A DNA stretch of 64,000 bases. It comes from Spirochaetae bacterium HGW-Spirochaetae-1 (GTDB lineage Bacteria; Spirochaetota; UBA4802; UBA5550). Below, piece by piece: positions 21,935 to 36,689 of this stretch. Under the pieces are notes generated by a model. It was not told the origin of the DNA, did no database searches, and saw only the letters and a program-made list of their open reading frames with translations. The DNA lies in the NCBI GenBank assembly GCA_002839375.1, contig PGXY01000010.1, forward strand, positions 248,001 through 312,000, in the 5' to 3' direction. Position 1 is the stretch's first letter; every line of letters begins with the position of its first letter. Made by a program: the position numbers and the translations under genes.

Positions 21935-22008
21935 GGTGGAAGTAGCTCAGTTGGCAGAGCCCAGGATTGTGATTCCTGTGGTCGCGGGTTCGAGCCCCGT
22001 CTTCCACC
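21935..22008 (+). tRNA. tRNA-His (anticodon GTG)
   Basis: A complete cloverleaf can be drawn. The acceptor stem GTGGAAG/CTTCCAC carries an encoded extra G at -1 opposite C73, the identity mark of tRNA-His. The D-arm is GCTC AGTTGGCA GAGC, the anticodon stem CAGGA/TCCTG with loop TTGTGAT, and the T-arm begins CGGGTTCGAG. CCA is not fully encoded. It is the attachment gene of the prophage, whose left end begins directly after it. Confidence 0.97.
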
Positions 22009-23551
22009 CATCGCGGGACAGATTCGAACCCGCATTTGCAGGGATGTCTGCGCAACGCAGCACATCCCTGTTTAGTATATAGCGGTAGGGAATTTTCCAC
22101 GATATGCTTGCTGCTGTGGCCTCATCGTTTATGGATATCGATTCCGCCATGCTTTTTAGCGCCTCGATGCGTTCCTCGCTGCCGGCAGATTGATACAGGT
22201 GCAGGAATTTCCTACACTTTTCAATGGTGTTTGATACCTCAAAAATAAAGGCCTCTTTATCCACTCTGATTTTCTGGTGTTGTTTTTCCAGCTGTTCGAT
22301 CTGTTTGCGGTTCTGCTGCATCCGGCGCTGGACGGTCTGCGGGTCGAATCCCTCATACAGCTTTTCGAGCAGGTCATCGTTTTCCCGTTCAAGTTTCATG
22401 ATCAATTTGGATATTTTCTCCTTCTCTTTCCCCTGATTTTTGTCCTTCACTTCAACGGAGTCCCTGAAAAGTTTTTCCAGGTACTGAGCGCCGTCATATG
22501 TAAGAATAAAACCTTCCAGAGCTTGATCAATGAGAAGAGAAAGTTTTTCTTCTTTGAATTGTGCCTTCAGGTAACGGTTTGTATAATAAATGTAATTTCC
22601 TGAGTTATGGGCGCCACAGTGCATCTCTCCTGTCAGGAGCCGATCCTTGTATCGCAGCAACCCGGAATAATCGAACTCAAAGGTCCGTGTGCGGGTCGAT
22701 TTATATTTAATTTTCAGTTTTTCGAGGCGTGATTCAAATCTCTCCAGGGTTATATATGGCTCATGGGTGCCCTGCCATATCTGGTCCTGATATTCGAAAG
22801 CACCGGTATAAAAGATGCTTGTCAACATGCGGTTAAGGGTCGTTTTGTTCCATTGCCCGCCACGGGAGGTTTTAAGACCCTGGTCATTGAGTTCATCGAC
22901 CAGATTTCGGATTGAAACAGTCCCATTGTCATATCGATCAAAAATATAATGCACCTGGTGTTTTGTGGCCTCATCGATGACGTGCTTTTTCTGGTCTTTA
23001 TCGTATATGTATCCAAGAGGCGGGGTGCATATTGGTGCGATCCCCTTTTTGGCTTTATAGAGAAACGTGGAGCGGGATTCAAAAGATATTTTGTCGCTCC
23101 AGTATTTTGCCATGGCCATATTGATGCCCAGGACGAACTCTTCAGTGTGATTCGAGTTCGCGTCAAATCGCTTACGGTCCTCGTAAAAATGGATCACGAA
23201 TTTCCGGTTTTTTACCAGATCCATGATGAGGACCAGGTCGTTATAGTTGCGGCTCATGCGGTCAGTATTTTTAAATACCAGGTGTGTGATATTATAGGTC
23301 CGGGCCGCCTTGATCATTGTGTTGAATATCCGGCGTCCTTCTTTCCTGGCTGATTCGGCAACGGTGAACTGGTGAATGATGCAAAGGTCCTGATCTTTGC
23401 AGTACTGTTCTGCCTGGGTTTTCTGGTTGGCCAGGGAGAGGCCCGTCTCTGCCTGGTCGAGGGTCGAGACTCGGTCATATACGAAGCAGGGGATTTTATC
23501 CCGGCAGGCGCTGAGATTATCAATGATTTGTTGCTGCAGGCTGATGTCCAT
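21947..23551 (-). CDS. Large serine recombinase (prophage integrase)
   Basis: A 534-residue serine recombinase. The resolvase domain has YDRVSTLDQAETGLSL with catalytic Ser29 and NTDRMSR. A recombinase domain follows (PPLGYIYD..., about residues 175-275), then a coiled coil rich in Glu/Lys/Gln (about 385-440). The usual zinc-ribbon cysteines are mostly absent: the GLLRCGxCG position reads GLLRYKDR, with one later Cys. It lies at the left end of the prophage. Its last ~20 codons lie antisense in tRNA-His, with the TGA at 21947-21949, so the C-terminus is host-encoded in the lysogen. Confidence 0.92.
   Translation of the reverse strand: MDISLQQQIIDNLSACRDKIPCFVYDRVSTLDQAETGLSLANQKTQAEQYCKDQDLCIIHQFTVAESARKEGRRIFNTMIKAARTYNITHLVFKNTDRMSRNYNDLVLIMDLVKNRKFVIHFYEDRKRFDANSNHTEEFVLGINMAMAKYWSDKISFESRSTFLYKAKKGIAPICTPPLGYIYDKDQKKHVIDEATKHQVHYIFDRYDNGTVSIRNLVDELNDQGLKTSRGGQWNKTTLNRMLTSIFYTGAFEYQDQIWQGTHEPYITLERFESRLEKLKIKYKSTRTRTFEFDYSGLLRYKDRLLTGEMHCGAHNSGNYIYYTNRYLKAQFKEEKLSLLIDQALEGFILTYDGAQYLEKLFRDSVEVKDKNQGKEKEKISKLIMKLERENDDLLEKLYEGFDPQTVQRRMQQNRKQIEQLEKQHQKIRVDKEAFIFEVSNTIEKCRKFLHLYQSAGSEERIEALKSMAESISINDEATAASISWKIPYRYILNRDVLRCADIPANAGSNLSRDGWKTGLEPATTGITILGSAN
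21996..22030. other. attL: prophage/host junction at the tRNA-His 3' end
   Basis: The host half CCCGTCTTCC joins the shared core ACCCAT (22006-22011), then the phage arm CGCGGGACAGATTCGAACC (22012-22030). The phage arm is the inverted counterpart of the arm at attR (61760-61777). ACCCAT recurs at 61784-61789, preceded by CCCGTC at the same spacing in both places. Assignment is by inference from this geometry. Confidence 0.7.
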
Positions 23552-23689
23552 AATTCACCTTTTAAATATATTACTCATGCATATATTAAATAGAAATAGA
23601 GTCAAACTATTTTTACTGTTTGCTGTAATGTTGTGTTTGATTGAAAGTTGAAAAGGAGTCTGACGGTAAAATAAGTTGATAAAAAAGTG

Positions 23690-23718
23690 TTGACTATTGA
23701 ACTTTTTTTCACTATAAA
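23690..23718 (+). promoter_or_regulatory. Promoter upstream of HsdR-N-like gene
   Basis: TTGACT (23690-23695), a spacer of exactly 17 bases and TATAAA (23713-23718), followed by the start codon 26 bases later. The preceding AAAAAAGTGTTGA recurs at about 27730-27745 before another accessory gene. Confidence 0.65.
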
Positions 23719-23744
23719 AAGCAAAAAGCGTAAAGGAGAGAGAA

Positions 23745-24575
23745 ATGGCGAATATACCCAAGAAGGTCATTGATCGTTTTAACGTAATGGTGAAGAAGTA
23801 TCAGAAACTTCTTCAGAATGCCAAGGATAAAGACATCAATGAGGCTGATACAGTAACCATCATTGCCAACATCCTGCATGAAGTCTTTGGCTATGACCAG
23901 TACGAAGAAATAACCAAAGAGTTTGCCATCAAGAATACATACTGTGACCTGGCGATCAAAATTGACAAAGAAGTGAAGTTTTTGATTGAGGCAAAGGCTA
24001 TTGGTATCAAGCTAAGCGAAAATCATATCAACCAGGCGACTAATTATGGCGCCAATAAGGGTATTGAGTGGGTTATTCTCACCAACGGTATCCACTGGAT
24101 CGTGTACAAGATGACATATACTAAAAGAATTGTGCACAACCAGATATGCGATATTGACTTCCTTGAACTCAATCCCAAAAAAGCCAGTGTCCAGGAACAG
24201 CTTTTTATCCTCTGCAAGGAAGGTCTCTCAAAGGATGCCATCGAGGAGTTCCATGCATACAAACGTGTGGTGAACAAGTTCTACATCAGTGCGATTATTC
24301 TCAGTGATACAGTGCAGGATGTGATAAAACGCGAATTGAAGAAGAGCTCTCCCGGTCTGAAACTTGATGACCAGGAGGTTGATTCCATCATTAAGTATGA
24401 AGTCCTGAAAAGAGATGGGGTAGACAGTGAGGAAGCACTCGATGCAATCGAACAGTACCGGGTGCTGACAAAGAAAGCAGCAAAGAAGGTCGTGAAGAAA
24501 AAGCCGATTGAGAAGGCAAAAAATACAAATGAAGTAGAATTTGACATTTCCCGTGGGGGAAATACTACAATATAA
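23745..24575 (+). CDS. Type I restriction HsdR N-terminal-like nuclease domain protein
   Basis: A 276-residue protein. Residues ~30-145 form the PD-(D/E)XK nuclease domain seen at the N-terminus of HsdR: an acidic residue in TYCDLAIKI, then FLIEAKAIG giving the E-x-K pair, followed by a Q-x3-Y segment. There is no helicase part, so this is not a full restriction subunit. The C-terminal half is helical and ends in a lysine-rich stretch. A promoter and an AAAGGAGAGA ribosome-binding site precede it. A defence or superinfection-exclusion role is possible but not shown. Confidence 0.75.
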   Translation: MANIPKKVIDRFNVMVKKYQKLLQNAKDKDINEADTVTIIANILHEVFGYDQYEEITKEFAIKNTYCDLAIKIDKEVKFLIEAKAIGIKLSENHINQATNYGANKGIEWVILTNGIHWIVYKMTYTKRIVHNQICDIDFLELNPKKASVQEQLFILCKEGLSKDAIEEFHAYKRVVNKFYISAIILSDTVQDVIKRELKKSSPGLKLDDQEVDSIIKYEVLKRDGVDSEEALDAIEQYRVLTKKAAKKVVKKKPIEKAKNTNEVEFDISRGGNTTI

Positions 24576-24595
24576 AAATGAAATAAGGAGGTTTT

Positions 24596-24778
24596 ATGGC
24601 TGCGAAATTTGAAATTTATCAAGATAAGAAAGGTGAATATCGCTTTAGATTAAAAGCAGGTAATGGGGAAATTATTGCAACAGGTGAGGGTTATAAACAG
24701 AAAGCAAGTTGTATAAATGGAATAGAATCAGTAAAACGAAATGCTCCTTCTGCGGATATTGTTGATTTAACAGAATAA
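24596..24778 (+). CDS. YegP-like DUF1508 single-repeat protein
   Basis: A 60-residue protein matching one DUF1508/YegP repeat: FEIYQDKKGEYRFRLKAGNG followed by the IxxGExYxxKxxCxNGIxSVK pattern. Many family members have two repeats; this has one. Function is not established. It follows the nuclease-like gene by 20 bases with an AAGGAGG ribosome-binding site, so they are co-transcribed, and it ends in a shared terminator. Confidence 0.88.
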   Translation: MAAKFEIYQDKKGEYRFRLKAGNGEIIATGEGYKQKASCINGIESVKRNAPSADIVDLTE

Positions 24779-24784
24779 TTACTC

Positions 24785-24816
24785 AATCCCCGGTTGATCC
24801 TTCACCGGGGATTTTT
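24785..24816. terminator. Bidirectional intrinsic terminator
   Basis: AATCCCCGGT (24785-24794) and ACCGGGGATT (24804-24813) form a perfect 10-bp stem with a 9-base loop and a T-run to 24816. It separates the YegP-like gene from the convergent XRE gene. Confidence 0.9.
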
Positions 24817-25111
24817 ACTCCCCCAGCTTCCTTAAAAAATCCATAACCGCCTTCCTGGTTTTAGCATTCAATCGATTATAATATTCCAGGATCATTAATT
24901 CTTCGTCCTTCAGTTCCGGCTTTCCGAAAAAATCATTTAACGTATAATTCAGTTCCCGTAGGATTTTCACAATCTCGTCCAGAGGTGGATACTCACTGTT
25001 TTCCCAGAACGAAATATTTCTCTGGCTGACGCCGGGTAATCGGTCGGCCAGCTGCTGCTGTGTCAGTCCAAAATGCTCCCGTATTGATTTTAGTTTTTCT
25101 CCCCAGTGCAT
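24815..25111 (-). CDS. XRE-family helix-turn-helix regulator
   Basis: A 98-residue protein with an N-terminal lambda-repressor-like domain: IREHFGLTQQQLADRL, then VSQRNISFWENSEYPP as the recognition part. The C-terminal ~35 residues are helical (EELMILEYYNRLNAKTRKAV). It is divergent from the PAS-HTH gene at 25231 and ends in the terminator at 24785-24816. It may be one half of a small regulatory switch, separate from the main repressor at 30877-31257. Confidence 0.88.
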   Translation of the reverse strand: MHWGEKLKSIREHFGLTQQQLADRLPGVSQRNISFWENSEYPPLDEIVKILRELNYTLNDFFGKPELKDEELMILEYYNRLNAKTRKAVMDFLRKLGE

Positions 25112-25187
25112 TATTCTATTAAAATTAAACTATTCCAGTGGACAAACGAAAATTGACGGAGGGTGATTTTTTATCGTGAACAGTAGA

Positions 25188-25208
25188 CATATAATGTATA
25201 ATTATATG
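25188..25208. promoter_or_regulatory. 8-bp inverted repeat overlapping a TATAAT box
   Basis: CATATAAT (25188-25195) and ATTATATG (25201-25208) flank GTATA. The left arm contains TATAAT at 25190-25195, and the PAS-HTH gene starts 22 bases after the repeat. It is a likely operator for a divergent regulator, but no good -35 box is seen. Confidence 0.5.
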
Positions 25209-25230
25209 GCGTACAGAAAAAGGGTGTATA

Positions 25231-25818
25231 ATGGATGATCTGTTTGAAATATCTCACAAATACATGCAGATGGGAAATGATATGATCATGGTTCATCGGA
25301 ACGGGATAATTCAATGGGCTAATCATAGATTCCTGAAAATTATGGGATATAATCTCCTTGAAGTTGTAGGGCGTCATTGCATAGAATTTGTGGCAGATGA
25401 ATTCAGGAAGATATCGCTGGAACGGATCACCCGGGGATTCTCTGGAAAGGATACTGTAAATAAACCTATTGAGGTCCGGTACCGGAGAGCCGATGGGTCT
25501 GAGTTCTGGGCGATGACAGTCTCTGCTCCAATTGACATTGATATAGGGCCGGCTGTCCTGGTTGTCGGCCGTGACATTACAGAGCGAAAAAACGATGAGG
25601 AGCTGATTAAAAATGTCATTATTTTTCTGCTTCCGAAACAGCTGGGGCGTCTCTTTGACCTGATGATCCAGGGGAAGTCCAGGGAGGAAATAATCAGGAT
25701 AATGGACCTGGATAATGATACCATAAGTCGTTATGTTCGAAGGATCAGGAAACGAATCCAACTGGCTGATAATGACTCTCTCTTTAACCGGTTTCTGTGC
25801 TTTTTCCGTGATAAATAG
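25231..25818 (+). CDS. PAS-domain protein with C-terminal helix-turn-helix-like region
   Basis: A 195-residue protein. A PAS domain occupies about residues 10-120 (WANHRFLKIMGYN, and the closing VVGRDITERK). After a short helix, residues ~130-185 resemble a LuxR/sigma-like helix-turn-helix (MIQGKSREEIIRIMDLDNDTIS). It would be a one-component sensor-regulator with a small-molecule or redox cue. An AAAGGGTG ribosome-binding site precedes the start. Prophage PAS regulators are unusual; it may couple the element to host physiology. Confidence 0.75.
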   Translation: MDDLFEISHKYMQMGNDMIMVHRNGIIQWANHRFLKIMGYNLLEVVGRHCIEFVADEFRKISLERITRGFSGKDTVNKPIEVRYRRADGSEFWAMTVSAPIDIDIGPAVLVVGRDITERKNDEELIKNVIIFLLPKQLGRLFDLMIQGKSREEIIRIMDLDNDTISRYVRRIRKRIQLADNDSLFNRFLCFFRDK

Positions 25819-25819
25819 G

Positions 25820-25862
25820 CGGACAAATTTTGTCCGGAATTAAATTATCCTAATATAGGATA
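25820..25862. promoter_or_regulatory. Two adjacent perfect palindromes
   Basis: CGGACAAA-T-TTTGTCCG (25820-25836) and TATCCTA-ATA-TAGGATA (25846-25862) lie directly after the PAS-HTH stop. The first lacks a T-run and is a poor terminator; either may be an operator. A TTGACA at 25867-25872 follows, so they may control the genes from 25934 on. Confidence 0.45.
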
Positions 25863-25933
25863 GAGTTTGACATAAGTACACTTTTAATATTTTGTTTTGC
25901 ATAGGGAGGGAACACCGATAGAGGGGTGGGCCC

Positions 25934-26095
25934 ATGGAAGATTTTAAAAAAAGCAATGACTTAATCAGGGAAGAAGAGTTGCTGAATGAGGAGATAAAGG
26001 CGTTACTGTCAATTATTGAGGAGAATCAGAAATCTAAGGAAGTTCTCAAAAAATTGGCTGGTGATGCTCTTAATAAGAAAATATATGACCGATAA
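25934..26095 (+). CDS. Small acidic helical protein of unknown function
   Basis: A 53-residue highly charged protein (EDFKKSNDLIREEELLNEE...), predicted to be one or two amphipathic helices. A GAGGGGTGGG sequence lies before the ATG. It precedes the TcmP gene by 29 bases and is probably co-transcribed with it. I do not recognise a family; it could be a regulatory partner. Confidence 0.6.
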   Translation: MEDFKKSNDLIREEELLNEEIKALLSIIEENQKSKEVLKKLAGDALNKKIYDR

Positions 26096-26124
26096 TATAC
26101 TATATTAGAATATTGGAGGTTTAT

Positions 26125-26946
26125 ATGTCAGAGTTTGATTTTAAACCAGACGAAATTGGAAGATGGTCTGAAGATAAACTTGAGATTCTTGAAAAATACT
26201 TTGCAGCATACTCAAAAATTTTAAGCAAATATCATTTTAAATATAGTTACATTGATGCTTTTAGTGGTGCTGGCGTTCATGTTTCCAAGGAAACCGGAGA
26301 GATTATTAGTGGCAGTCCGTTAAGGGCACTTAAAATACGACCTCCCTTTCATGAATATCATTTTATCGATATCGATAACTTAAAACTTACTCATTTACAA
26401 AATGCGGCATGTGACAATCCAGGCGTATTCTGTCATGAAGGGAACTGTAACGAAATTTTACTTAAAGAAGTTTTGCCTAACATTAGATACGATAGGTATG
26501 AAAGAGCAATTTGCCTTTTTGATCCGTATGGTTTACATTTAAATTGGGAAGTAATTGAATATGCCGGGAATAGTAAGGCTATGGAAATATTTCTAAATTT
26601 TCCGATTGCAGATATGAACAGAAATGTTTTATGGGAGAATCATGAAGGAGTGTCTGAGGATCAGAAGTTAAGAATGAATAAATTCTGGGGAAATGATTCC
26701 TGGAAAAATGCGGCATACGAGGTTACTCCTGGATTGTTTGACGATATAATAGAAAAAACAAATAATAAAGCAGTTGCGGATGCTTTTAAAAAAAGGTTGA
26801 AGGCTGTTGCCGGTTTTAAATATGTCGCTGAACCGGTACCAATGAAAAATTCAAGAAATGCGATAGTATATTACCTTTTTTTTGCTTCCCAGAATGAAAA
26901 GGGTTGCAAAATTGCAAATGATATATTCAATACATACAGGAAGTAG
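26125..26946 (+). CDS. tcmP: Three-Cys-motif partner protein (TcmP)
   Basis: A 273-residue protein of the TcmP family, named for always lying next to a three-Cys-motif protein. Recognisable marks are KPDEIGRWSEDKLEIL at the N-terminus, YIDAFSGAGVH (about residues 46-56), and CLFDPYGLHLNW (about 130-141). The S-G-A-G and D-P-Y elements resemble a Rossmann-type methyltransferase-like fold, but the reaction is not established. The ATG at 26125 follows GGAGG; a TTG twelve bases earlier is not needed. Three bases separate it from the partner gene. Confidence 0.88.
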   Translation: MSEFDFKPDEIGRWSEDKLEILEKYFAAYSKILSKYHFKYSYIDAFSGAGVHVSKETGEIISGSPLRALKIRPPFHEYHFIDIDNLKLTHLQNAACDNPGVFCHEGNCNEILLKEVLPNIRYDRYERAICLFDPYGLHLNWEVIEYAGNSKAMEIFLNFPIADMNRNVLWENHEGVSEDQKLRMNKFWGNDSWKNAAYEVTPGLFDDIIEKTNNKAVADAFKKRLKAVAGFKYVAEPVPMKNSRNAIVYYLFFASQNEKGCKIANDIFNTYRK

Positions 26947-26949
26947 ATC

Positions 26950-27666
26950 ATGGCGATTGATACTCACATTGAATGGACCGACTCGACTTGGAATCCCTGG
27001 AGAGGATGCAGAAAGATTTCGGCTGGTTGTAAAAACTGTTATATGTTCAGAGATCAGAAACGGTTCGGACAGGATCCAGAGAAAATTATACGCGCAAAAG
27101 ATACAACTTTCAAGGCCCCTTTGAAATGGAATACAGCAAGAATGGTCTTTACTTGTTCTTGGTCTGATTTTTTTATTGAAGAGGCTGATTTATGGCGCGA
27201 CGAGGCATGGGATATTATTAAAAATACACCACATCTTACTTATCAGATTCTCACTAAGCGTCCTGAAAATATAATGGATAGGCTGCCGCTTGATTGGGGA
27301 TATGGATGGCATAATGTATGGCTGGGAGTTACTGTTGAAGATCAGAGATCAGTTGATGTGAGAATTCCGTTACTTATGCAAAATAACTCTAAAATAAAAT
27401 TTCTGAGTTGCGAACCTCTTCTTGAAAATTTGGAAATATTCAAATGGTTAAAAGCCTATCCGATCGACTGGGTAATTGTTGGCGGGGAAAGCGGCCCTGG
27501 AGCCAGGGTAATGAAATCGGAGTGGGTTAGATCATTAAAAGAACAATGCGCTCAGTCTTCTACTTCCTTTTTCTTTAAGCAGTGGGGTGGTTTTAACAAG
27601 AAAAAAGCCGGAAGGCTTCTTGATGGGCATGAGTATTCAGAACTGCCACAATTGGCCTGCATATAA
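26950..27666 (+). CDS. DUF5131 / phage Gp37-Gp68-like three-Cys-motif protein
   Basis: A 238-residue protein with the family opening IEWTDSTWNPWRGC and cysteines C20-x6-C27-x2-C30. This spacing recalls a radical-SAM-like or iron-sulfur site, but the biochemical role is unknown. Further family marks are QILTKRPE, VWLGVTVEDQ, FLSCEPLLE, and VGGESGPGARVM. It directly follows TcmP, the usual pairing for these families, often on phages and mobile elements. The low GC compared with structural genes suggests recent acquisition. Confidence 0.9.
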   Translation: MAIDTHIEWTDSTWNPWRGCRKISAGCKNCYMFRDQKRFGQDPEKIIRAKDTTFKAPLKWNTARMVFTCSWSDFFIEEADLWRDEAWDIIKNTPHLTYQILTKRPENIMDRLPLDWGYGWHNVWLGVTVEDQRSVDVRIPLLMQNNSKIKFLSCEPLLENLEIFKWLKAYPIDWVIVGGESGPGARVMKSEWVRSLKEQCAQSSTSFFFKQWGGFNKKKAGRLLDGHEYSELPQLACI

Positions 27667-27825
27667 ATTCTTTATTGATTATAACTCCTCTGACCTGAAA
27701 TTATTATTTAATTCATCTCTTTTGACCAATTAAAAAAAAGTGTTGATTTGTCTATAATGGTAGAATAATAGTGTTATATTTGCAAGTCAATATCATTTTA
27801 AAATTAAAAATGAAGGAGGAATAAT

Positions 27826-28035
27826 ATGTTACCCAAACGCCTTAAAGAAGTAAAAATGCAAATTGAAAAGAAAAGTTTTCACCAAAGGACAAAAAAAGAG
27901 CTGGAGTTGCTCGAAGAGTTAATAGCACTTGATAATGTATTAGATTATCAAGTTATGAGAAAAGCAATGCTCGAGGATGGTGGTCCTGTAGCTATAACAT
28001 CAGGTCCAGGGAATTGTCCTTGTTGTGGCAAATAA
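27826..28035 (+). CDS. Small hypothetical protein ending in CPCCGK
   Basis: A 69-residue basic, helical protein. The C-terminus GNCPCCGK has three cysteines like half a zinc knuckle. A GAAGGAGGAA ribosome-binding site precedes the ATG, and the upstream 150 bases are AT-rich with promoter-like boxes (TTGATT, then TAATAG 17 bases on). The next gene begins two bases after its stop. I do not recognise the family; the pairing suggests a functional unit. Confidence 0.65.
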   Translation: MLPKRLKEVKMQIEKKSFHQRTKKELELLEELIALDNVLDYQVMRKAMLEDGGPVAITSGPGNCPCCGK

Positions 28036-28037
28036 AT

Positions 28038-28799
28038 ATGGGTAGTAAAGGCTATTTCATTGTATATCAAGATAATGATGATTTAAGAGACATTCATTAT
28101 CAACAAATTAAATTAAGACTTGGTCAAGATATACCCGAAGATCAATTGGAGTTACGTGATCAAGTTGATAAGACTTTAACTGTATTGAAAATGATTTTTG
28201 AAGATGATGATAAAAAATACTTCACCTACTTTCGGCAACTTTTATCTCTTTCGCAGTTGGGATTAGTTGGCAATTCGGCTAATCCCAAGTTGGCCATGAG
28301 AGCATTAAATACAATGAAAGATGACATCCTTTCTCTTGAAGGAGGGAAAGTGAAAAATATATATATGTTACAGTTAGGAAAGGCTGCTTTGAAGTTATCT
28401 ATATTACCATTTGCATTATTTTTTATTGTGCTCTACTTTGGTTTTAGCAGCACAATTCCTTATTATTTATGTTCAATTATTGGATCATTACTGGGAGTAT
28501 GGTTATCATTTGGCATACGTAAAATCTATTTAAAATTTGAAGATTTAAATATTTTAGAAAAAGACAGATTGAACCCATATTTAAGGCTATTTTTTTCTGT
28601 AGCATTAACAATTGTTATATGTCTTTTAATAACAACTCAGGCTGCGGTTTTTGAAATAGGAGGACTTTCTACTAAAAACTATCTCTCAAAATATGAAATA
28701 TCATTTTTAGTAGGAGTTTTTTGTGGTATAAGTGAGAAAGCATTATCGATAAAGGTAGGGCAACAAGCTGCAGAATTTTTAGGTTTAAAAACTTTATAA
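28038..28799 (+). CDS. Hypothetical membrane protein with soluble N-terminal domain
   Basis: A 253-residue protein. The first ~115 residues are soluble and charged; then come hydrophobic segments at about 119-140, 145-162, 185-208 and 218-232. The start at 28038 is two bases past the preceding stop, and the upstream in-frame TTG at 28014 lies inside that gene. I do not recognise the family. A soluble sensor joined to membrane helices, paired with a small cysteine protein, recalls phage-exclusion effectors, but nothing here proves it. Confidence 0.65.
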   Translation: MGSKGYFIVYQDNDDLRDIHYQQIKLRLGQDIPEDQLELRDQVDKTLTVLKMIFEDDDKKYFTYFRQLLSLSQLGLVGNSANPKLAMRALNTMKDDILSLEGGKVKNIYMLQLGKAALKLSILPFALFFIVLYFGFSSTIPYYLCSIIGSLLGVWLSFGIRKIYLKFEDLNILEKDRLNPYLRLFFSVALTIVICLLITTQAAVFEIGGLSTKNYLSKYEISFLVGVFCGISEKALSIKVGQQAAEFLGLKTL

Positions 28800-28818
28800 T
28801 TTTTATTTTATAAAATCC

Positions 28819-28880
28819 TCATTTCCCCAGCGTACCAGCCAGCGGTATCCCCGCCGCCAGGAGGGCGGTCCTCATAATAA
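28819..28880 (-). repeat. Remnant of an XRE gene 3' end (copy B)
   Basis: Read on the minus strand this encodes MRTALLAAGIPLAGTLGK and a stop, very like the last residues of the XRE repressor at 30877 (MKTALLSAGIPLEGALGK). No helix-turn-helix part is attached. A third copy lies at 29771-29808. Confidence 0.8.
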
Positions 28881-28896
28881 GGCATTTGCAACTATA

Positions 28897-29409
28897 TTAT
28901 TTTTGTTTCGATGATTTTATTTTTTTTGCCAGGAGAGTGTTCTCAATGTTGACGTCATTGATGTAATCAATGTGTTTTTTCGCCGGGGGGATGCGAAAAG
29001 AGAACCATGTTTTACCATCGGCATTAGTGATAGAAAAGTCGCCAAGTCTGATTAAATCCATTCCGATCAAGACGTCACAACTATTGAGGTTTGAGGGCTG
29101 GCTTACCTGAACATCGCCAATTATTACATGGTTAGGCAGATATATATCAACTAAATACACGTTCGCAATTTCAACTAGGTTTACACTTGATATTTGTGTT
29201 TTTGATATAGGAACCAGTTTCAAATCACTCACAATACGCGCGCTTATACAGGTGTTTGTCGCACCGGTATCCCATACTGCTTTTGCGGTAATAGGTGTTG
29301 TGAGTTGCCCGGCTGGTATTATTTTTTTGCTTGGGGAAATCAGAATTTGGTTTGATAGTTCTCTTAATAAACCATCCGCTGCTTTAGTGGTGAACGCTGT
29401 AGGTATCAT
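28897..29409 (-). CDS. Retropepsin-like aspartic protease
   Basis: A 170-residue single-domain protease. The catalytic motif is AVWDTGATNTCIS (DTGA at about residues 47-50) and the family's closing hydrophobic-G segment is DVLIGMDLIRLGDFSI (about 110-125). Such proteins act as dimers. There is no membrane anchor or signal. The small gene at 29413-29643 lies just upstream with a three-base gap, so the two are one unit. The substrate is unknown; the small partner is a candidate. Confidence 0.85.
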   Translation of the reverse strand: MIPTAFTTKAADGLLRELSNQILISPSKKIIPAGQLTTPITAKAVWDTGATNTCISARIVSDLKLVPISKTQISSVNLVEIANVYLVDIYLPNHVIIGDVQVSQPSNLNSCDVLIGMDLIRLGDFSITNADGKTWFSFRIPPAKKHIDYINDVNIENTLLAKKIKSSKQK

Positions 29410-29412
29410 CGA

Positions 29413-29643
29413 TTATACGGCTACACGTGTATGGAAATGCTGAATTGTTTTTTCTTCAGGGACGCATTCTTGGACCAGAAATGAGCCAACAGGATATTTT
29501 TGAGTAGTTATAGTAAGAGCATCCTGGATGGTATCGTATACTCCCAATACATCATTATCTTTGATAACAATAAATTTGCCTTTATACTTTTCGACAAATT
29601 CTTTCCGGTGTTCATTAAAATAACTATACTCTTTATCCAACAT
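29413..29643 (-). CDS. Small conserved partner of the retropepsin-like protease
   Basis: A 76-residue protein starting at MLDKEYSYFNEHRKE. It contains KYKGKFIVIKDNDVLGVYD and ends in QHFHTRVAV. Small proteins with this general sequence accompany retropepsin-like genes in other genomes as I recall (DUF5678-like), but I cannot verify that here. Upstream in-frame codons to 29730 look like non-coding DNA. It may be the protease's substrate, inhibitor or chaperone. Confidence 0.7.
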   Translation of the reverse strand: MLDKEYSYFNEHRKEFVEKYKGKFIVIKDNDVLGVYDTIQDALTITTQKYPVGSFLVQECVPEEKTIQHFHTRVAV

Positions 29644-29770
29644 ATCGATAACCACGTTTAGATGCAATTTTATAATACAAATATACAGAATACAGTGTGT
29701 TATTTCAAGGCATTCATGTGGTGGTGTCAAGTAAATTATAGATTTCTATATAATTTTGAAGAATTGGAGA

Positions 29771-29808
29771 TCACTTCCCCAGCGGGATCCCCGCTGACAG
29801 GAGGGGAA
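29771..29808 (-). repeat. Remnant of an XRE gene 3' end (copy C)
   Basis: On the minus strand this encodes VPLLSAGIPLGK and a stop, matching the XRE C-terminus with the EGAL residues deleted. It sits between two pairs of accessory genes. The 29644-29848 gap holds nothing else I can support. Confidence 0.75.
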
Positions 29809-29848
29809 CCTTCACTTGCCGTAAAAGCTCAATAGCCACCGGAATAAA

Positions 29849-30124
29849 TTATATAAAATTCGATAATATCTGAAGAATAAAACCTATTGTAAGTGCTGCC
29901 AATCCAAGTTTCATTCTGAAATATTTTTGCTTTTCCCATTTTTTAAAGTCTTCTGTTTCGACTGGTGGTGGACCGGCTGACATGTCTGAACACGTAATAA
30001 TACAAACTGGTTCATGCTTTTTCCCGTGAAATTGTCTTACCACCTCCCAGGCTACAAACCAGGCACCAATTATATCAAATACAAGACCCAATGAATTGAC
30101 ACATTGTGAAGAGCAAATTTGCAT
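29849..30124 (-). CDS. Small two-helix membrane protein
   Basis: A 91-residue protein with a hydrophobic segment at about residues 9-27 (including IGAWFVAWEVV) and another at the C-terminus (LGLAALTIGFILQILSNFI). Between them is a hydrophilic loop with SAGPPPVETED and a KWEKQKYF stretch. No family recognised. It follows the secreted-protein gene at 30159 by about 34 bases on the same strand. Confidence 0.6.
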   Translation of the reverse strand: MQICSSQCVNSLGLVFDIIGAWFVAWEVVRQFHGKKHEPVCIITCSDMSAGPPPVETEDFKKWEKQKYFRMKLGLAALTIGFILQILSNFI

Positions 30125-30158
30125 AAATAGTAATCCTTCTTTATGGTTTTAGTTTTAC

Positions 30159-30776
30159 TCAAAGAACCTTTTCAGCAATCGATGCTTCAGTCTGTTTCAT
30201 CAATTCAGTGTCCAGGTAGGTGATCTCAATAGTATACCTTTTTGTTATTTCATCGATAAAACACTCTGTGGTAATTGCAGCAGGATTAGTACTCCATTCA
30301 TCAGTAAATATTACACTTCCCTGGTATTTTTTTAGCTGCTCAATATAATTGCCTTTCCCAAATCTTGTTTTCAATTTATTATATTCATTATAAACGGCTT
30401 TTGCATTTTGGCATCTTTCTTTGTACACAATCCGGCTGACAACACTACCGAGAAGGGGGTTGTCGAGACCAATTAATTTAACATCTTCAGTAATTGTGCA
30501 TGCTTTTGTGAGGGTTATGTAAATATTTTTTTCACCAAATTTTGTTGGAAAATTCTGGAGTGATATTCCAATTATGATACTTTCGTTGTCTTGAGTTTTA
30601 TGAGTATAATCAAAATGCACTGATTGTAGCCAATTACGATTTATGGTATAATCAGAAGCGAGTTTTTTGGCATCTTCGAAAGTCATTCCAAGGTAAAAAC
30701 CACCATAGCCAATTTTGTTATCAGCAAATAAAAAACAGGTTGAAAGAATCAATAATGATGTTGCGAGTCGTTTCAT
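30159..30776 (-). CDS. Hypothetical secreted protein
   Basis: A 205-residue protein with a Sec signal peptide (KRLATSLLILSTCFLFA, cleaved near ADN). The mature part begins YGGFYLGMTFEDAKKLA, a layout common in periplasmic proteins of unknown function, and contains about four cysteines that may form disulfides. The start at 30776 gives the best signal peptide. Together with the next gene it may be a lysogenic-conversion unit. Confidence 0.65.
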   Translation of the reverse strand: MKRLATSLLILSTCFLFADNKIGYGGFYLGMTFEDAKKLASDYTINRNWLQSVHFDYTHKTQDNESIIIGISLQNFPTKFGEKNIYITLTKACTITEDVKLIGLDNPLLGSVVSRIVYKERCQNAKAVYNEYNKLKTRFGKGNYIEQLKKYQGSVIFTDEWSTNPAAITTECFIDEITKRYTIEITYLDTELMKQTEASIAEKVL

Positions 30777-30876
30777 GGTTGGCCTCTTAAGTTGCAATTA
30801 TAAACTACATTGCAAAAAAAGAGCATTAAGTCAATAAGAATATCAGCCGGGTTTTTCTATTATTGTCTTGAGATAA

Positions 30877-31257
30877 TCACTTCCCCAGCGCGCCCTCCAG
30901 CGGGATCCCCGCCGAAAGTAATGCTGTCTTCATAATCTCCACAAATGACCGCTTTATAGACACCCGGATTGCAGGTTCGATCCGGGTGTTCAGTATTTTC
31001 AGGATTTCGGCGTCGTCGGGAGTGATGTATGGAGGAATATAGTTTTTCAACTTTACTGGATCATCAAGAAAAAATTCCCACATTGGTTTGTTAAAATAAT
31101 TACATACTTTTTCTATGGCATCGAGTGGAGGGTATGCCGATTTTTCCCATGCTGAAACAGTCCCTTGGCGGACGTTTAGTTTTTCGGCCAAATCCTTCTG
31201 GCTGAAATTAGAATCCTTTCTCAAATTTTTAAGTAATTCTCCGTAATTCACTGCCAA
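30877..31257 (-). CDS. XRE-family prophage repressor candidate
   Basis: A 126-residue protein. The N-terminal helix-turn-helix is clear (NFSQKDLAEKLNVRQGTVSAWEKSAYPP, about residues 17-44). The C-terminal half is helical and ends MKTALLSAGIPLEGALGK. It faces the early operon across a 157-base gap with a perfect palindrome and a strong promoter, the layout of a CI-like lysogeny control region. No peptidase (LexA/CI-type) domain is present, so induction would not use RecA cleavage. Confidence 0.85.
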   Translation of the reverse strand: MAVNYGELLKNLRKDSNFSQKDLAEKLNVRQGTVSAWEKSAYPPLDAIEKVCNYFNKPMWEFFLDDPVKLKNYIPPYITPDDAEILKILNTRIEPAIRVSIKRSFVEIMKTALLSAGIPLEGALGK

Positions 31258-31300
31258 TTCCTTTTGTTAATACTTAAATATCATGTATAATGTCGTTTGT

Positions 31301-31322
31301 AAAACTAAAAATATTTAGTTTT
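31301..31322. promoter_or_regulatory. Perfect 9-bp operator palindrome
   Basis: AAAACTAAA (31301-31309), spacer AATA, and TTTAGTTTT (31314-31322) lie between the XRE repressor and the early operon, just upstream of the TTGACA box at 31334. It is the best candidate binding site for the repressor. Confidence 0.65.
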
Positions 31323-31333
31323 TTATTTTTTTA

Positions 31334-31362
31334 TTGACAAAAAACAAAATACAAAGTATCAA
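31334..31362 (+). promoter_or_regulatory. Early operon promoter
   Basis: TTGACA (31334-31339), a 17-base spacer, and TATCAA (31357-31362), with the first gene starting at 31415. The operator palindrome is directly upstream. Confidence 0.65.
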
Positions 31363-31414
31363 GGTGACATAAATAACAATAAAAGCGTATATTAAAGTAG
31401 TTGGTTAAAATATC

Positions 31415-31594
31415 ATGAACGGTAATAAAATATCCATCCAAGAGCCAGTCAGAAAGGCGATTACTTTCTGGATCAATCCAGATGTTTCAGCAGCTTTTAA
31501 AGCCAAATGTGCACAGGAGCAGGAGAAAATGCAGGATGTTGCCGCCCGGCTGATGCGTCAATACGTGGATAACAGTGAGAGTGGCGCCGCATGA
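31415..31594 (+). CDS. Small ribbon-helix-helix-like protein
   Basis: A 59-residue protein with KAITFWINPDVSAAFKAKC, a beta-strand followed by two helices as in CopG/Arc-type regulators. It is the first gene of the early operon and could be a Cro- or Arc-like transcription regulator. The stop overlaps the next start (ATGA). Confidence 0.7.
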   Translation: MNGNKISIQEPVRKAITFWINPDVSAAFKAKCAQEQEKMQDVAARLMRQYVDNSESGAA

Positions 31595-31776
31595 TCCCCA
31601 TGGTGGAAAATCAAATGGCGGTATGGCTGATTTGCATCGGGACAAGTGTCCGGCGGCGGGTTGACAGGGCCATGGTCAGGACCCGAGATGCTTTGGAAAC
31701 CAGACTTTCCGGCGTTAATCATGAAAAGCGCCATGAGCTTGAATTTTTGATAAAAAGGCTCTACAGGGGAAACTGA
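31591..31776 (+). CDS. Small basic hypothetical protein
   Basis: A 61-residue protein with a short hydrophobic segment (MAVWLICIGTSV) followed by a strongly basic helical region (RRRVDRAMVRTRDALETRL). It overlaps its neighbours by four and one bases, so it is translated as part of the operon. The function is unknown. A start at the next ATG (31600) is also possible. Confidence 0.6.
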   Translation: MIPMVENQMAVWLICIGTSVRRRVDRAMVRTRDALETRLSGVNHEKRHELEFLIKRLYRGN

Positions 31777-31949
31777 TGCCGGAAGAAAGAGATCCACGTA
31801 TCCCCACCGATCCCAGCGTACTTGAAGCTCACAGGGGGAAAATCCTCTGGCTGGCCGACTGGTGTGATCGGGTTGAAAAACGCCTGATAAAAGAGGGGAA
31901 GCTGCCGCCAGAAGGTCTGGTGCTTCCTCCGTTGAGGAGCGAGAAGTGA
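31776..31949 (+). CDS. Small hypothetical early protein
   Basis: A 57-residue protein (starts PEERDPRIPTDPS, with KILWLADWCDRVEKRLI as an amphipathic helix). The ATG shares a base with the previous stop, and its own stop overlaps the following GTG start. The tight coupling supports it as real. No family recognised. Confidence 0.65.
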   Translation: MPEERDPRIPTDPSVLEAHRGKILWLADWCDRVEKRLIKEGKLPPEGLVLPPLRSEK

Positions 31950-32191
31950 TCCGTACCGTTTATATCTGCGATGTATGCAAATCGGAATTTGTCGATGATT
32001 CGCGCATCGAGCCGTTCCCGGCGTCCATTCCTGTTTATGAGGATGCGGTCAAGGACGGTGAAACGGTGAAATGTATCGGCCTCCTGGAGACTGAGCATAT
32101 ATGTATGAATTGTCTGCAGGTCATGGCTGGAATGATGGATGTGTTCCTGGCTACAAGGATAAAGATAACGGAGGTCCAGATTGATAATTGA
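31946..32191 (+). CDS. Small zinc-knuckle early protein
   Basis: An 81-residue protein starting with GTG in a GTGA overlap. It carries C-x2-C near the N-terminus (YICDVCKS) and a second Cys pair later (HICMNC), suggesting one zinc site. It overlaps the next gene by 11 bases. The function is unknown; small zinc proteins are common in phage early regions. Confidence 0.65.
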   Translation: MIRTVYICDVCKSEFVDDSRIEPFPASIPVYEDAVKDGETVKCIGLLETEHICMNCLQVMAGMMDVFLATRIKITEVQIDN

Positions 32192-32411
32192 TGTGGAACT
32201 GAGTGATGAAGCTTATGAGCGGATAGGGCGCATCGCAGATATATTGAAAACTACACGGGGCGTGGTGTTGTCATGGTACGTTCACGATCTGGTTTCATCG
32301 GAGCCGAATAGTGGCAGCGACGAACGCCGTATGGCGAAAGAATATCTGCTTCGGTCCCTGGTAGGTGATGCTCATGATCAGGTTGATGAATTTTTAAGCG
32401 GTTTATATTAG
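32181..32411 (+). CDS. Small helical early protein (TTG start)
   Basis: A 76-residue protein. The TTG at 32181 is preceded by GGAGG at the right distance, which decides the start. The sequence VELSDEAYERIGRIADILKT resembles a ribbon-helix-helix opening, but the rest does not help. Same-strand overlap with the preceding gene supports co-translation. Confidence 0.6.
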   Translation: MIIDVELSDEAYERIGRIADILKTTRGVVLSWYVHDLVSSEPNSGSDERRMAKEYLLRSLVGDAHDQVDEFLSGLY

Positions 32412-32449
32412 CGGGATTGATATTCCGGTACGAAATGGAGGTGGGAATA

Positions 32450-32734
32450 ATGATGAATCAGGATCAGGCTCAATATAATGCACCGGTTCGCGTGCCCGGC
32501 CTCGATTTCCGGGCGGAACTCAATGGTATTGTGAAGCGGTATGCCGAGAAGCAGGGATATCCCTATCGGCATGTATGGAACATCTATTATTCGGCCCTGC
32601 AGGATCATCTGCGCTTCGATGTGCGCGGTACTGCTGATGCACTTCACATGAGGCCGCTGGATTTTATCGAACAGAAACGGCTGACCGAGGCTGCCATACA
32701 TGTGGCCGGGGAAATTTTCGGCCGTTGGTTATAA
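32450..32734 (+). CDS. Hypothetical phage early protein
   Basis: A 94-residue protein beginning MMNQDQAQYN after a GGAGGTGGG ribosome-binding site. It has a helical core (LDFRAELNGIVKRYAEKQGY, then YYSALQDHLRFDV). I do not recognise the family. An upstream in-frame start at 32417 lacks a ribosome-binding site. Confidence 0.6.
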   Translation: MMNQDQAQYNAPVRVPGLDFRAELNGIVKRYAEKQGYPYRHVWNIYYSALQDHLRFDVRGTADALHMRPLDFIEQKRLTEAAIHVAGEIFGRWL

Positions 32735-32751
32735 AAACAGGGAGGGAAGTT

Positions 32752-32934
32752 ATGCGATATTTTTATCACATCCAGACCGAGAAAAAGCTCCGGGGCATAA
32801 AGCCCACGAGCGTCACCGGGCCATGGTTCCGGCGAACATATTTTTATGATCTTACGGCACCGGCACTGTTTAAAAAGGCGCTCAGTCAGCTGGGTAAAAC
32901 ACCGCTGAAATGCATCGCGGGAGGCCGGATATGA
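32752..32934 (+). CDS. Small basic hypothetical protein
   Basis: A 60-residue basic protein (RYFYHIQTEKKLRGIKP...). A GGGAGGGAAG ribosome-binding site lies before the ATG. Its stop overlaps the next ATG by four bases. Function unknown. Confidence 0.6.
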   Translation: MRYFYHIQTEKKLRGIKPTSVTGPWFRRTYFYDLTAPALFKKALSQLGKTPLKCIAGGRI

Positions 32935-33308
32935 GCGAAGACTACATTATTGTCCGGACTGAAACGTTGGACGGCGGTCTTTTTGCCGAGCGGATCAATG
33001 ACGCCATACAGGAATGCCTGGCGAATATTTACGATCCAAATGTGGAGCAGGAGAAGGTGCGGGAGGTCCAGGCGATTATCAAACTGAAGCCATCAAGCAG
33101 TGATTCCCGGAAAGTGGCTGTTTTTACCCAGGTGAAAACGAAGCTGTCCCAACCAACTCCCAGCGAGACAATCATTTTCGCCGGGACCAAAGATGGTGAG
33201 TATGTGGCGTACGAGCAAAATCTCAATCAGGGCAATTTCTCTTTTGATGGAGAGGGGGGAGCCGCAGGAGATAATATCGTAAAAATGAAAACAGGAGGCG
33301 GAGAATGA
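32931..33308 (+). CDS. Hypothetical phage early protein
   Basis: A 125-residue acidic protein. It has a beta-rich centre (VQAIIKLKPSSSDSRKVAVF, then ETIIFAGTKDGEYVAYEQNL) that resembles phage proteins of unknown function found before recombination or replication genes. It overlaps the genes on both sides by four bases. Confidence 0.65.
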   Translation: MSEDYIIVRTETLDGGLFAERINDAIQECLANIYDPNVEQEKVREVQAIIKLKPSSSDSRKVAVFTQVKTKLSQPTPSETIIFAGTKDGEYVAYEQNLNQGNFSFDGEGGAAGDNIVKMKTGGGE

Positions 33309-34021
33309 TAGATAGATCATTTGTTGAAAAAATAGAGGAACTCGCGGCACTCAAGACAATTGAGATTAACGGTGAAACATATTCAAGTAGAGTACTTGAA
33401 CTGGTAAAACCCGACTATGAACCGGCTCCTGAGCCTCTGCTTATAGGCACACTCACGGGCCTTGTGGATTATTTGCAAAATAATCACGACAACGCGAAGC
33501 AATATATGCTCCATGTTTTGTCCGAGGACGTGGTCAGGCTATACGGAGAATATGAACCCCAGTTCGGCAGGAGGAAGCACTATCTGACGGCCACTTACGG
33601 GATGAAGGGATTTAAATTCGGGCAGTATCATGATCAGGAATCGTTTATAATTCAATTACAGGCCATGTTTGCCGATGCCGGCGATAGAGCCGATGTGATG
33701 AAAGATGCCGGGAAAGTCGCTGGCGAGTCGCGGCTTAATCAGAGCGATGATGGTATTACACAGCAGGTAACGGTAAAAGAAAGTATTGGAAGGATGGTTG
33801 ATAAACCTCTCATGAATCCGGTTCAACTCGCGCCATATCGGACATTCCCTGAAATTGACCAGATCGTATCGCCATTTGTTTTCCGTATGAAAAAAACTGA
33901 CATGGGAATTGCTTTTGCATTGTTCGAGTGTGATGGGGACAAATGGAAGCTTGACGCCATCCATGCCATCAGGAATTACCTGAAAGAGAAACTCGGTGAT
34001 AAGGCCTCGATTATAGCATAG
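33305..34021 (+). CDS. Hypothetical phage protein, last gene of the early operon
   Basis: A 238-residue protein. The segment LIGTLTGLVDYLQNNHDN and the later RTFPEIDQIVSPFVFRMK are features I associate with unannotated phage proteins of this size, but no function is known to me. It could be a structural or DNA-binding factor. It overlaps the preceding gene (ATGA) and is followed by the non-coding GC-rich stretch. Confidence 0.65.
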   Translation: MIDRSFVEKIEELAALKTIEINGETYSSRVLELVKPDYEPAPEPLLIGTLTGLVDYLQNNHDNAKQYMLHVLSEDVVRLYGEYEPQFGRRKHYLTATYGMKGFKFGQYHDQESFIIQLQAMFADAGDRADVMKDAGKVAGESRLNQSDDGITQQVTVKESIGRMVDKPLMNPVQLAPYRTFPEIDQIVSPFVFRMKKTDMGIAFALFECDGDKWKLDAIHAIRNYLKEKLGDKASIIA

Positions 34022-34034
34022 AACCCAAGTTGTC

Positions 34035-34328
34035 TCCATGGCCCGGAAGGGTGGCGGAGGGAGGTCGGCAGCGGACCGCGGGGAGCTGCCGAAAGCGCGT
34101 AAAACGCGACACAAGACGCGGACGCCGGGGACGTTAAAATAAAATTTAAGTTTTTGTTGCACGGGATGTTCTGGATTAAGGTTCCGATATTCCCAGGATG
34201 GTCGGCCCGTCACGGCCGTGAATCATGGATAACGAGTAATATGCCGACGGCGGGGTCGGCCGGTCTCATAAAATACCTCCTTGTCTTGATATACGCCGGT
34301 TCTCCGGGGCGTTGTACCGGGGAGACAC
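34035..34328 (+). ncRNA. GC-rich structured non-coding region preceding the prophage tRNA
   Basis: The 34022-34328 gap has no credible reading frame with codon use like its neighbours and is much richer in GC than the flanks. Several perfect short hairpins follow one another: GGCAGC/GCTGCC (34067-34090), CGCGT-AAA-ACGCG (34096-34108), GCCGAC/GTCGGC (34243-34260), ACGCC/GGCGT (34293-34312). It runs directly into tRNA-Met. A phage-encoded structured RNA co-transcribed with the tRNA is my best guess. It cannot be matched to a family by eye. Confidence 0.4.
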
Positions 34329-34403
34329 AGCGCGGTGGAGCAGTCTGGTAAGCTCGTCTGGCTCATAACCAGGAGGTCGGGGGTTCGAATCCCTCCTGCG
34401 CTA
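34329..34403 (+). tRNA. Prophage tRNA-Met (anticodon CAT)
   Basis: A complete 75-base cloverleaf: acceptor AGCGCGG/CTGCGCT (one G-T pair), D-arm GAGC AGTCTGGTAA GCTC, anticodon stem TCTGG/CCAGG with loop CTCATAA, T-arm GGGGG TTCGAAT CCCTC, discriminator A, no encoded CCA. Position 1-72 is paired and the anticodon stem lacks three G-C pairs, so it is not a bacterial initiator. It could also be an Ile tRNA read after lysidine modification. The TOPRIM gene starts 15 bases downstream. Confidence 0.93.
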
Positions 34404-34417
34404 CATACGAAGGAATT

Positions 34418-35335
34418 ATGGCAAAGATAAAATTCAGAGAAATACGATTGAGCAAGGCAAATTTTAACCGCCTTGATATTATCAATCAGATTATTGAAGA
34501 ATATCAGAGTGACGGTTACACGCTCACCCTGCGTCAGTTGTATTATCAGCTGGTCAGCCGGGATATCATACCCAACAAACAGAGTGAATATGCCAAGCTT
34601 TCAACGGTATTAAAAGAAGGCCGCATGGCCGGCATAGTCGATTGGAGTGCAATAGAAGACAGGTTACGTAAGCCATCATCTCCTGCGTCATTTGATAGCC
34701 CGGAAAATATTTTACAGGCAGCTATTCAGCAATATGAATTACCGCGACAAAAAGGGCAGGATATATATCTGGAGGTATTTGTTGAGAAAGATGCTCTCAG
34801 CGGAGTGTTAAAACGTATTACGGAAAGATATCATGTCCCTATATCGGTGAACCGGGGATATGCCAGTGCATCGTCCATGTTTGACGCCTATCAACGGTTT
34901 TCATCTGCTATTGAACACGGGCAGTCTGTCAAAGTCTTATATCTGGGTGATTATGATCCCAGCGGTATAGATATGATCCGTGACATCCGGGACAGAATTG
35001 CCGAATTCGCCATGGGAGAGTATGGGTATTACAGCATCGAGGAGGCTTTGGTTGAGTTTAATTTTTCCATAGAGCCCATTGCTTTAACCCGAGAGCAGAT
35101 AAAAAAATATAAACCGCCTCCAAACCCGGCGAAAGTGACAGATCCACGGGCAAAAGAATTTATCAGGAATCATGGATCGAAAAGCTGGGAGGTTGATGCT
35201 CTCAGGCCTGATGTCTTGAGTAGACTGCTTGATGATGCGATCCGTAGTAATATAGACGAGGATGTATTCAATGAAGTAATCGAAAGGGAAGAAAGTGATA
35301 AGGTAAAACTTAAATCACTGATGAGTTATTTATAA
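34418..35335 (+). CDS. TOPRIM-domain protein, Spo11/TopoVI-A-like
   Basis: A 305-residue phage protein. An N-terminal helical or winged-helix part (LTLRQLYYQLVSRDIIPNKQ, about residues 36-55) is followed by a TOPRIM core. The conserved glutamate is in IYLEVFVEKDALS (about 117-129) and the D-x-D motif is YLGDYDPSGIDM (about 175-186). This fold occurs in Spo11/topoisomerase VI A and in phage proteins of unknown role. I see no clear catalytic tyrosine context, so nicking or topoisomerase activity is unproven. It sits in the replication region. Confidence 0.75.
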   Translation: MAKIKFREIRLSKANFNRLDIINQIIEEYQSDGYTLTLRQLYYQLVSRDIIPNKQSEYAKLSTVLKEGRMAGIVDWSAIEDRLRKPSSPASFDSPENILQAAIQQYELPRQKGQDIYLEVFVEKDALSGVLKRITERYHVPISVNRGYASASSMFDAYQRFSSAIEHGQSVKVLYLGDYDPSGIDMIRDIRDRIAEFAMGEYGYYSIEEALVEFNFSIEPIALTREQIKKYKPPPNPAKVTDPRAKEFIRNHGSKSWEVDALRPDVLSRLLDDAIRSNIDEDVFNEVIEREESDKVKLKSLMSYL

Positions 35336-35364
35336 CAAATTGCAGGATGCCTTAAGGAGACATA

Positions 35365-36387
35365 ATGCGTTTTAGTTTTGAAAGATGGAATCTTATCAGG
35401 GCCAATGAACTCGGTCTCAAGTTTGACGACCTGGCCATAATTACATATTTCGTGGATTTCACCACTTCCGGAAAAATGGATTCTATCATACATCAGGGGA
35501 AAGTCTATTATTGGGTTTCCTATTATAATATCGTTAAAGAGTATCCCATGCTTACAATAAAATCTCGTGATGGGGTATATCGCCGGTTTAAGAAATATGT
35601 TGATGTTGGTATCCTGCATGCAGTTCTTGAGCCCGGTACACAACGACCACACTATTGCCTTGATCCTGATATGTATTTTTCTCTCCTCTCTTATACCTCT
35701 CAAGTGAACTTGCAGTCTGAAAAATCAATATCTGATGAATCTGGAAATAAGGGGAAGGATAAAGGGGTCGGATTTTTTTCCGAAGGTGTCGGAAATAATT
35801 CCGAACATAGCTCGGAGGAAAATCCGAACGAGGCTCGGAAAAATTTCCGAACAGATCCTACTACTATACATGATCCTATTACTATTGATCCGTATTGTAT
35901 AGTAACGCTCGCCCAGAACGACAAATTATATCAGCACTGGTGGGGGAAGTATTGCGAAGGAATCCCGGATAATGCTGAATATCGTGCGGCATCATACAGA
36001 AAATTGGTCGAGTTCGCGACGAAATACAAACCGAGCGTGGATCAATTGATATATGCACTCAAAGAGTCAGTCGATAAGGGACATGCCGGACATGATTATT
36101 ATCTCGCGGGAATTCTGAATAATATTAACCTTAACCGGTATGTCGATGCTGATATTCCGGTTGAATTACAGGTAGAAAACCTGGTTAAAAAGCGACTCAC
36201 CGATATGGACGAATATCTCCGCCATTATGAATTTGACCATCAGAACATGAAAGTACTCTATTCGCTTACAGGAATTGATGACGCATATATACGACGCATA
36301 TTCACAGGGGTTGAAGAGGACCTTGCACGTCAATGCCAGATAGATTATCAGTTTTTGGATAAATCTTTTTTACGGAAAACAGGATGA
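35365..36387 (+). CDS. Phage replication initiator-like protein (O/DnaD type)
   Basis: A 340-residue protein. The N-terminal ~110 residues contain a winged-helix-like part (ELGLKFDDLAIITYFVD, then SRDGVYRRFKKYVDVGILH). A linker rich in Glu, Asn and Ser follows (about 120-165), then a C-terminal helical domain. This layout is typical of phage O-like initiators that recruit the host helicase. The linker DNA repeats CGGAA-containing motifs, which in O genes often double as the replication origin. Lies between the TOPRIM gene and small late-early genes. Confidence 0.65.
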   Translation: MRFSFERWNLIRANELGLKFDDLAIITYFVDFTTSGKMDSIIHQGKVYYWVSYYNIVKEYPMLTIKSRDGVYRRFKKYVDVGILHAVLEPGTQRPHYCLDPDMYFSLLSYTSQVNLQSEKSISDESGNKGKDKGVGFFSEGVGNNSEHSSEENPNEARKNFRTDPTTIHDPITIDPYCIVTLAQNDKLYQHWWGKYCEGIPDNAEYRAASYRKLVEFATKYKPSVDQLIYALKESVDKGHAGHDYYLAGILNNINLNRYVDADIPVELQVENLVKKRLTDMDEYLRHYEFDHQNMKVLYSLTGIDDAYIRRIFTGVEEDLARQCQIDYQFLDKSFLRKTG

Positions 36388-36399
36388 AGGAGGGTGGTG

Positions 36400-36668: not shown

Positions 36669-36689
36669 GGGAATTAAGGGGAATTTTAA

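Follow-up and report, generated by a model that had tools for sequence, protein, structure and literature searches.

The integrase of Myxococcus phage Mx8 belongs to the tyrosine family, and the attB sites of this phage are found at tRNA genes. The Mx8 attP is contained in the int coding sequence, and int acquires a new 3′ end upon integration (PMC6070905). Mycobacteriophages with integration-dependent immunity have a comparable arrangement, in which attP sits within a phage gene, the product made from the prophage has a different C-terminus and some attB sites overlap tRNA 3′ ends (PMC8092301). The ‘suicidal’ integrases of archaea (SSV, pTN3 and pT26-2) also carry the recombination site inside the integrase gene, as part of a compact module (PMC8371274). 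For serine integrases, it was stated in 2014 that none was known to target tRNA genes (PMC4383910), and tRNA goes unmentioned in the main text of a 2022 survey of thousands of serine recombinases (PMC10083194). Our own literature search, which reached few subscription titles, turned up neither serine integrases at tRNA genes nor int genes that end in tRNAs.

The window (the whole 64,000-nucleotide stretch of DNA analyzed here) holds a prophage at tRNA-His whose int gene resembles that of Mx8, in that attP lies inside the int frame and the C-terminus is changed on integration. The enzyme itself differs from Mx8 integrase: it is a serine recombinase that acts at short cores with a 2-bp crossover, and some 20 of its residues change. 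The window int is thus alike to the Mx8 type in layout and is not a member of it, as it is not a homologous tyrosine integrase. A nested attP in int with a changed C-terminus is already known, Mx8 being the clear precedent. The mycobacteriophage immunity systems share the attP within a gene and the altered C-terminus, but there the gene concerned encodes a repressor, integration depends on a tyrosine enzyme and the described mechanism is the loss of a degradation tag (PMC8092301). Archaeal suicidal integrases are likewise tyrosine recombinases, and their gene is split and inactivated, whereas in the window int only the end changes.

The predicted protein is a large serine recombinase (LSR), or serine integrase. 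An N-terminal resolvase domain is followed by a Recombinase domain (PF00239 and PF07508, both above their cut-offs), and the catalytic residues of the Y-x-R-V-S and D-R-x-x-R motifs are present and invariant in the alignment (Y25, R27, S29, R98 and R101). The C-terminal part, with its predicted zinc ribbon and coiled coil, matches the C-terminal domain of A118 integrase and the cryo-EM structures of serine integrases. The att sites are short, as in serine integrases, with a 6-bp core, inverted arms and an outer motif that lies about 4 bp farther from the core in attP than it does in attB. Both sequence and structure searches give the protein the same fold as the A118/Listeria innocua prophage serine integrase (PDB 4KIS), and it shares with A118 the half-site logic of the att sites, where the zinc-domain motif is shifted by about 5 bp between attP and attB (PMC3783163). 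Unlike the window integrase, A118 targets comK (PMC3556126), and no extension of the A118 enzyme through attP was seen. The match to the A118 integrase profile ends at a conserved tryptophan (position 477) and, because the homologous tryptophan is also where the match to the solved A118 chain stops, the window tail can be regarded as an extension. Structure prediction gives pLDDT values below 50 from residue 504 of the window protein, where there is almost no aligned sequence; the prediction for one relative, L018, is likewise of low confidence from residue 487.

A sequence-only reading of this DNA had proposed that the recombinase frame leaves the prophage and ends in the antisense of tRNA-His. 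This is the case: in the prophage state the minus-strand ORF 23551-21947 reaches its stop codon (21949-21947) within the tRNA, and the 534-aa lysogen form ends in NLSRDG followed by WKTGLEPATTGITILGSAN. Joining the prophage ends at ACCCAT (22006/61784) keeps the frame open as far as a stop at 61718-61716, exactly as had been claimed, and yields a 537-aa protein in which NLSRDG is followed by YLTGQISNLYAVSAEWQMRFVA. The open frame of the circle had been put at about 24 codons; the count is in fact 22, with the lysogen adding 19. The further proposal that the two enzyme forms differ only in their tails agrees with our reconstruction, since the first 515 residues are common to both and only the last 19 (lysogen) or 22 (circle) differ. 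In the joined form, the stop of int also overlaps a 40-aa lysine-rich ORF (window 61597-61719, plus strand) tail to tail, by a few bases (TTAA).

The features of the locus are collected in Table 1. The rebuilt attP is an inverted repeat with AATCTGTCCCG arms centered on the core, as expected for a serine integrase, and its center of symmetry would place the crossover dinucleotide at AC, 22006-22007. When the window was scanned for a second arm, position 61784 ranked first (z = 5.6, against 3.1 for the runner-up) with a P-arm matrix that was built from the P arms of these same loci. The hairpin beyond the far end adds support for a junction at 61784. A search for the empty site by way of the flanking gene gave best family matches without an adjacent tRNA-His, and no empty attB. 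Within the prophage, a tRNA-Met-type gene (CAT, window 34329-34404) adjoins the phage topoisomerase gene, and two other genes encode a protein that has a PAS domain and weakly matches the LuxR type (window 25231-25818) and a DUF5131 protein (window 26950-27666).

Table 1. Coordinates of the integrase gene, attachment sites, tRNA and hairpins in the window.
Feature	Position	Strand	Basis or remark
Large serine recombinase gene, lysogen form, 534 aa	21947..23551	-	ORF translation, domains, alignment, fold searches
Circle-only int 3′ end (YLTGQISNLYAVSAEWQMRFVA, stop 61718-61716)	61716..61785	-	Shares a few bases with the end of a small convergent ORF
tRNA-His (GTG), intact after integration	21936..22009	+	Sole tRNA-His copy found in genome search
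attL core ACCCAT	22006..22011		Recurrence at 61784-61789
attR core ACCCAT	61784..61789		Second copy of core, at the prophage far end
P half-site within int frame	22008..22033	-	GTTCG at 22029-22025 (-), offset common to 15/23 loci
P′ half-site (GGTTTGAAATCTGTCCCGTCAGGT)	61760..61783	+	Inverted copy of P half-site, 17/26 aligned positions equal
GGGTTCGA of tRNA T-arm, 12 nt from crossover	21986..21993	+	Putative B half-site zinc-domain motif, from the model in PMC3783163
Hairpin in phage DNA just behind tRNA, within int frame	22038..22071	+	-24 kcal/mol, z -7
Perfect hairpin with A and T runs, directly beyond attR	61790..61823		Folding, z -10
Prophage, ~39.8 kb	22006..61789		Terminase, portal, major head, tape measure, topoisomerase, methyltransferase and DNA-metabolism genes

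Relatives were sought in the family, order and phylum, in genome contigs (Spirochaetota assemblies, bar one distant match) and in viral contigs. About two dozen were found at roughly 25-70% identity, giving 23 non-redundant loci with the window included. At each of these 23 loci the LSR frame terminates inside the antisense of a tRNA or tmRNA 3′ end or right at its border, the targets being His, Asn, Arg, Trp, Leu, Val, Glu, Ser and ssrA. Such an ending is absent from most other serine recombinases of the phylum (L121 has it) and from 33 of the 36 in a wider viral-contig set, a count of 33 that includes the apparently unintegrated L018 and L019. The three exceptions in that set (L136, L162 and L178) are, like L121, distant serine recombinases ending in antisense tRNA-Asp, Glu or Asn, and have no GTTCG arm at the fixed offset described below. 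The viral contigs L018 and L019 place int amid phage genes with both attP arms inside the int frame; they appear to be unintegrated viral genomes and thereby to show the circle arrangement directly. The L018 core is ATGGGT, as in the tRNA-His group.

Single-sequence scans of the genome and viral contigs gave no close relatives of the window protein, and subfamily scans (A4 and A5) of the viral contigs gave no further close members; among known phages, the best places found by tblastn were below 27% identity. Far ends are convincing only for the window, for G199 and perhaps for G191, those of the other relatives being tentative predictions made with the P-arm matrix. Scans of G033, G019, G016, G015, G020, G017 and G136 gave no convincing attR, in some cases because the contig ends.

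At any one locus, a run of 22 codons without a stop arises by chance about once in three times. The open frame is therefore not beyond chance at a single site, while the pattern over the relatives is. Over the span from four codons past the conserved end to the inferred crossover, the int frame contains no stops in 364 codons, against 34 in 728 codons of the other two frames (p = 8e-7, which is optimistic, as are the p-values that follow, since the loci share ancestry and the counts are not fully independent). The signal comes from the long tails: for tails of at least 15 codons, stops occur in 0 of 9 loci in the int frame versus 14 of 18 in the other frames (p = 1.5e-4), and the tails shorter than 15 codons are not significant by themselves (p = 0.18). 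The P arm is stop-poor in all frames. Between L005 and L006 the pre-crossover tail has changed mostly synonymously (dN/dS about 0.25, compared with about 0.07 for the body), and the tail of the tRNA-Asn subgroup gives about 0.25-0.36. Based on the frame test and on this largely synonymous change, the part of the frame that precedes the crossover most likely encodes genuine protein.

The arm nested in the frame also carries a fixed motif. GTTCG (at least four of five bases) lies at exactly -22 to -18 from the crossover in 15 of the 23 loci, where chance would give 1.6% each; a clear copy at this offset is absent from L013, L014, L016, L037 and L042. GTTCG is the T-loop motif of the tRNA across the crossover, the tRNA copy being closer to the crossover by 4 bp. 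A118-type integrases have their zinc-domain motif 5 bp farther from the core in attP than it is in attB (PMC3783163), and by analogy we infer that the LSR family at these loci reads the tRNA T-arm.

As the genome search found a single tRNA-His, integration must leave it working, and the crossover falls at its last bases. The hairpin that follows the tRNA in the phage DNA is probably a replacement 3′-end structure for tRNA-His, here without a full T-run, and the one beyond attR is presumed to be the original tRNA-His terminator, displaced by about 39.8 kb by the prophage. Both were called by folding alone, a consensus terminator scan of the window having listed nothing, neither hairpin included. 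Over the 23 loci, the phage DNA behind the tRNA forms a hairpin with z below -2 relative to shuffles in 13, against 1 of 23 for controls from the int body (p = 1e-4), and terminators with T-runs are seen in about 10. These hairpins probably replace the tRNA terminator displaced by integration. Because the hairpin sits in the int tail, the same bases would serve the protein, attP and, probably, the tRNA 3′ end.

The best explanation for these patterns, to which we would assign a probability of about 0.72, appears to be a family of LSRs that targets tRNA 3′ ends with a nested attP, the swap of tails being incidental. A large serine integrase family would use the 3′ ends of numerous tRNA genes as integration sites, with its attP lying within the coding 3′ end of int. 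The T-arm (GTTCGA) would probably be read as a half-site motif, with the same motif some 4 bp further out in attP. With int pointing towards the tRNA and free of stops up to the crossover, its phage-encoded tail and stop would be traded, on integration, for codons from the antisense tRNA. The strand opposite the tail codons would carry the hairpin, which has the look of a replacement tRNA terminator in about half of the members. The tail swap as such is then likely to be a by-product of having attP nested within int in an LSR that targets tRNA genes, and the tail after the crossover may have no selected function. About two dozen serine integrases appear to target eight tRNA types plus tmRNA. 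Recognition of the T-arm, if true, would explain how one enzyme fold moves between tRNA targets and would make these compact integrases with predictable sites. With a nested attP, a protein tail and a hairpin all packed into a short stretch, the locus clearly illustrates how coding demands can overlap.

It seems unlikely to us that attP instead acts as a protein switch, with the circle form integrating and the tRNA-supplied lysogen tail altering stability, excision or the response to a directionality factor. A selected difference between the two forms in stability, specificity or directionality-factor response has precedents, as the specificity of Mx8 integrase changes after its C-terminus is swapped (PMC6070905) and mycobacteriophage repressors lose a degradation tag at attP (PMC8092301). 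In L018, L019 and the window circle the frame passes through attP from end to end, and the circle tails of the window and L018 end in hydrophobic residues plus A (RFVA and FLIA), which is loosely degron-like. The other circle ends (LWMAG, SRK and FHG) are not degron-like, however, and the tail is predicted to be disordered, though in the region with almost no aligned sequence. Past the crossover, the lysogen tails of relatives range from 0 to 34 codons with no common sequence or tRNA reading frame; L003 and L007 stop at the core itself, and a tentative attR for the L003 element gives the same stop in both states. Seven circle forms stay open for about 0, 12, 14, 22, 23, 24 and 39 codons past the crossover, which is what chance gives. 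One observation points the other way: of five circle forms, either reconstructed or natural, three have an int stop that shares a few bases with the stop of a convergent ORF. Compact phage genes normally end like this, a hint that int natively ends as it does in the circle. Among the relatives, the open frame as far as the crossover and the location of attP inside the gene are conserved, and nothing after the crossover is. A selected switch of this kind is therefore rather improbable, and the suggestion in the sequence-only reading that the tail tunes integration against excision, or protein stability, finds no support; the conservation of the circular-form tail that it offered as a check is not seen among the relatives.

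A crossing of attP by luck, with the functional end of the protein near residues 490-500 and the remainder as filler that happens to be free of stops, would fit the A118 profile match ending at the tryptophan, the unremarkable state of any single locus and the short-tail loci that are not significant. The contrast in stops between the int frame and its sister frames, which is strong for the long tails, and the mostly synonymous change before the crossover make this explanation quite improbable. Control at the RNA level is more doubtful still; here the lysogen int mRNA would overlap tRNA-His in antisense, or the hairpin would stabilize or end either transcript, and the protein tail would be incidental. 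The convergent genes, the single-copy tRNA-His with its presumed terminator displaced and the recurrence of hairpins behind the tRNA are consistent with such control, which would account for the hairpin but not for the avoidance of stops in the int frame.

Two of the related loci show what may be older events. At L012 (1161-1330) a second, partial tRNA copy lies behind the occupied tRNA-Asn, perhaps as a trace of repeated integrations, and at L008 (~390-690; G020:C64:20440-20736) the intact recombinase has the remnant of a second one upstream of it, suggestive of a decayed older element.
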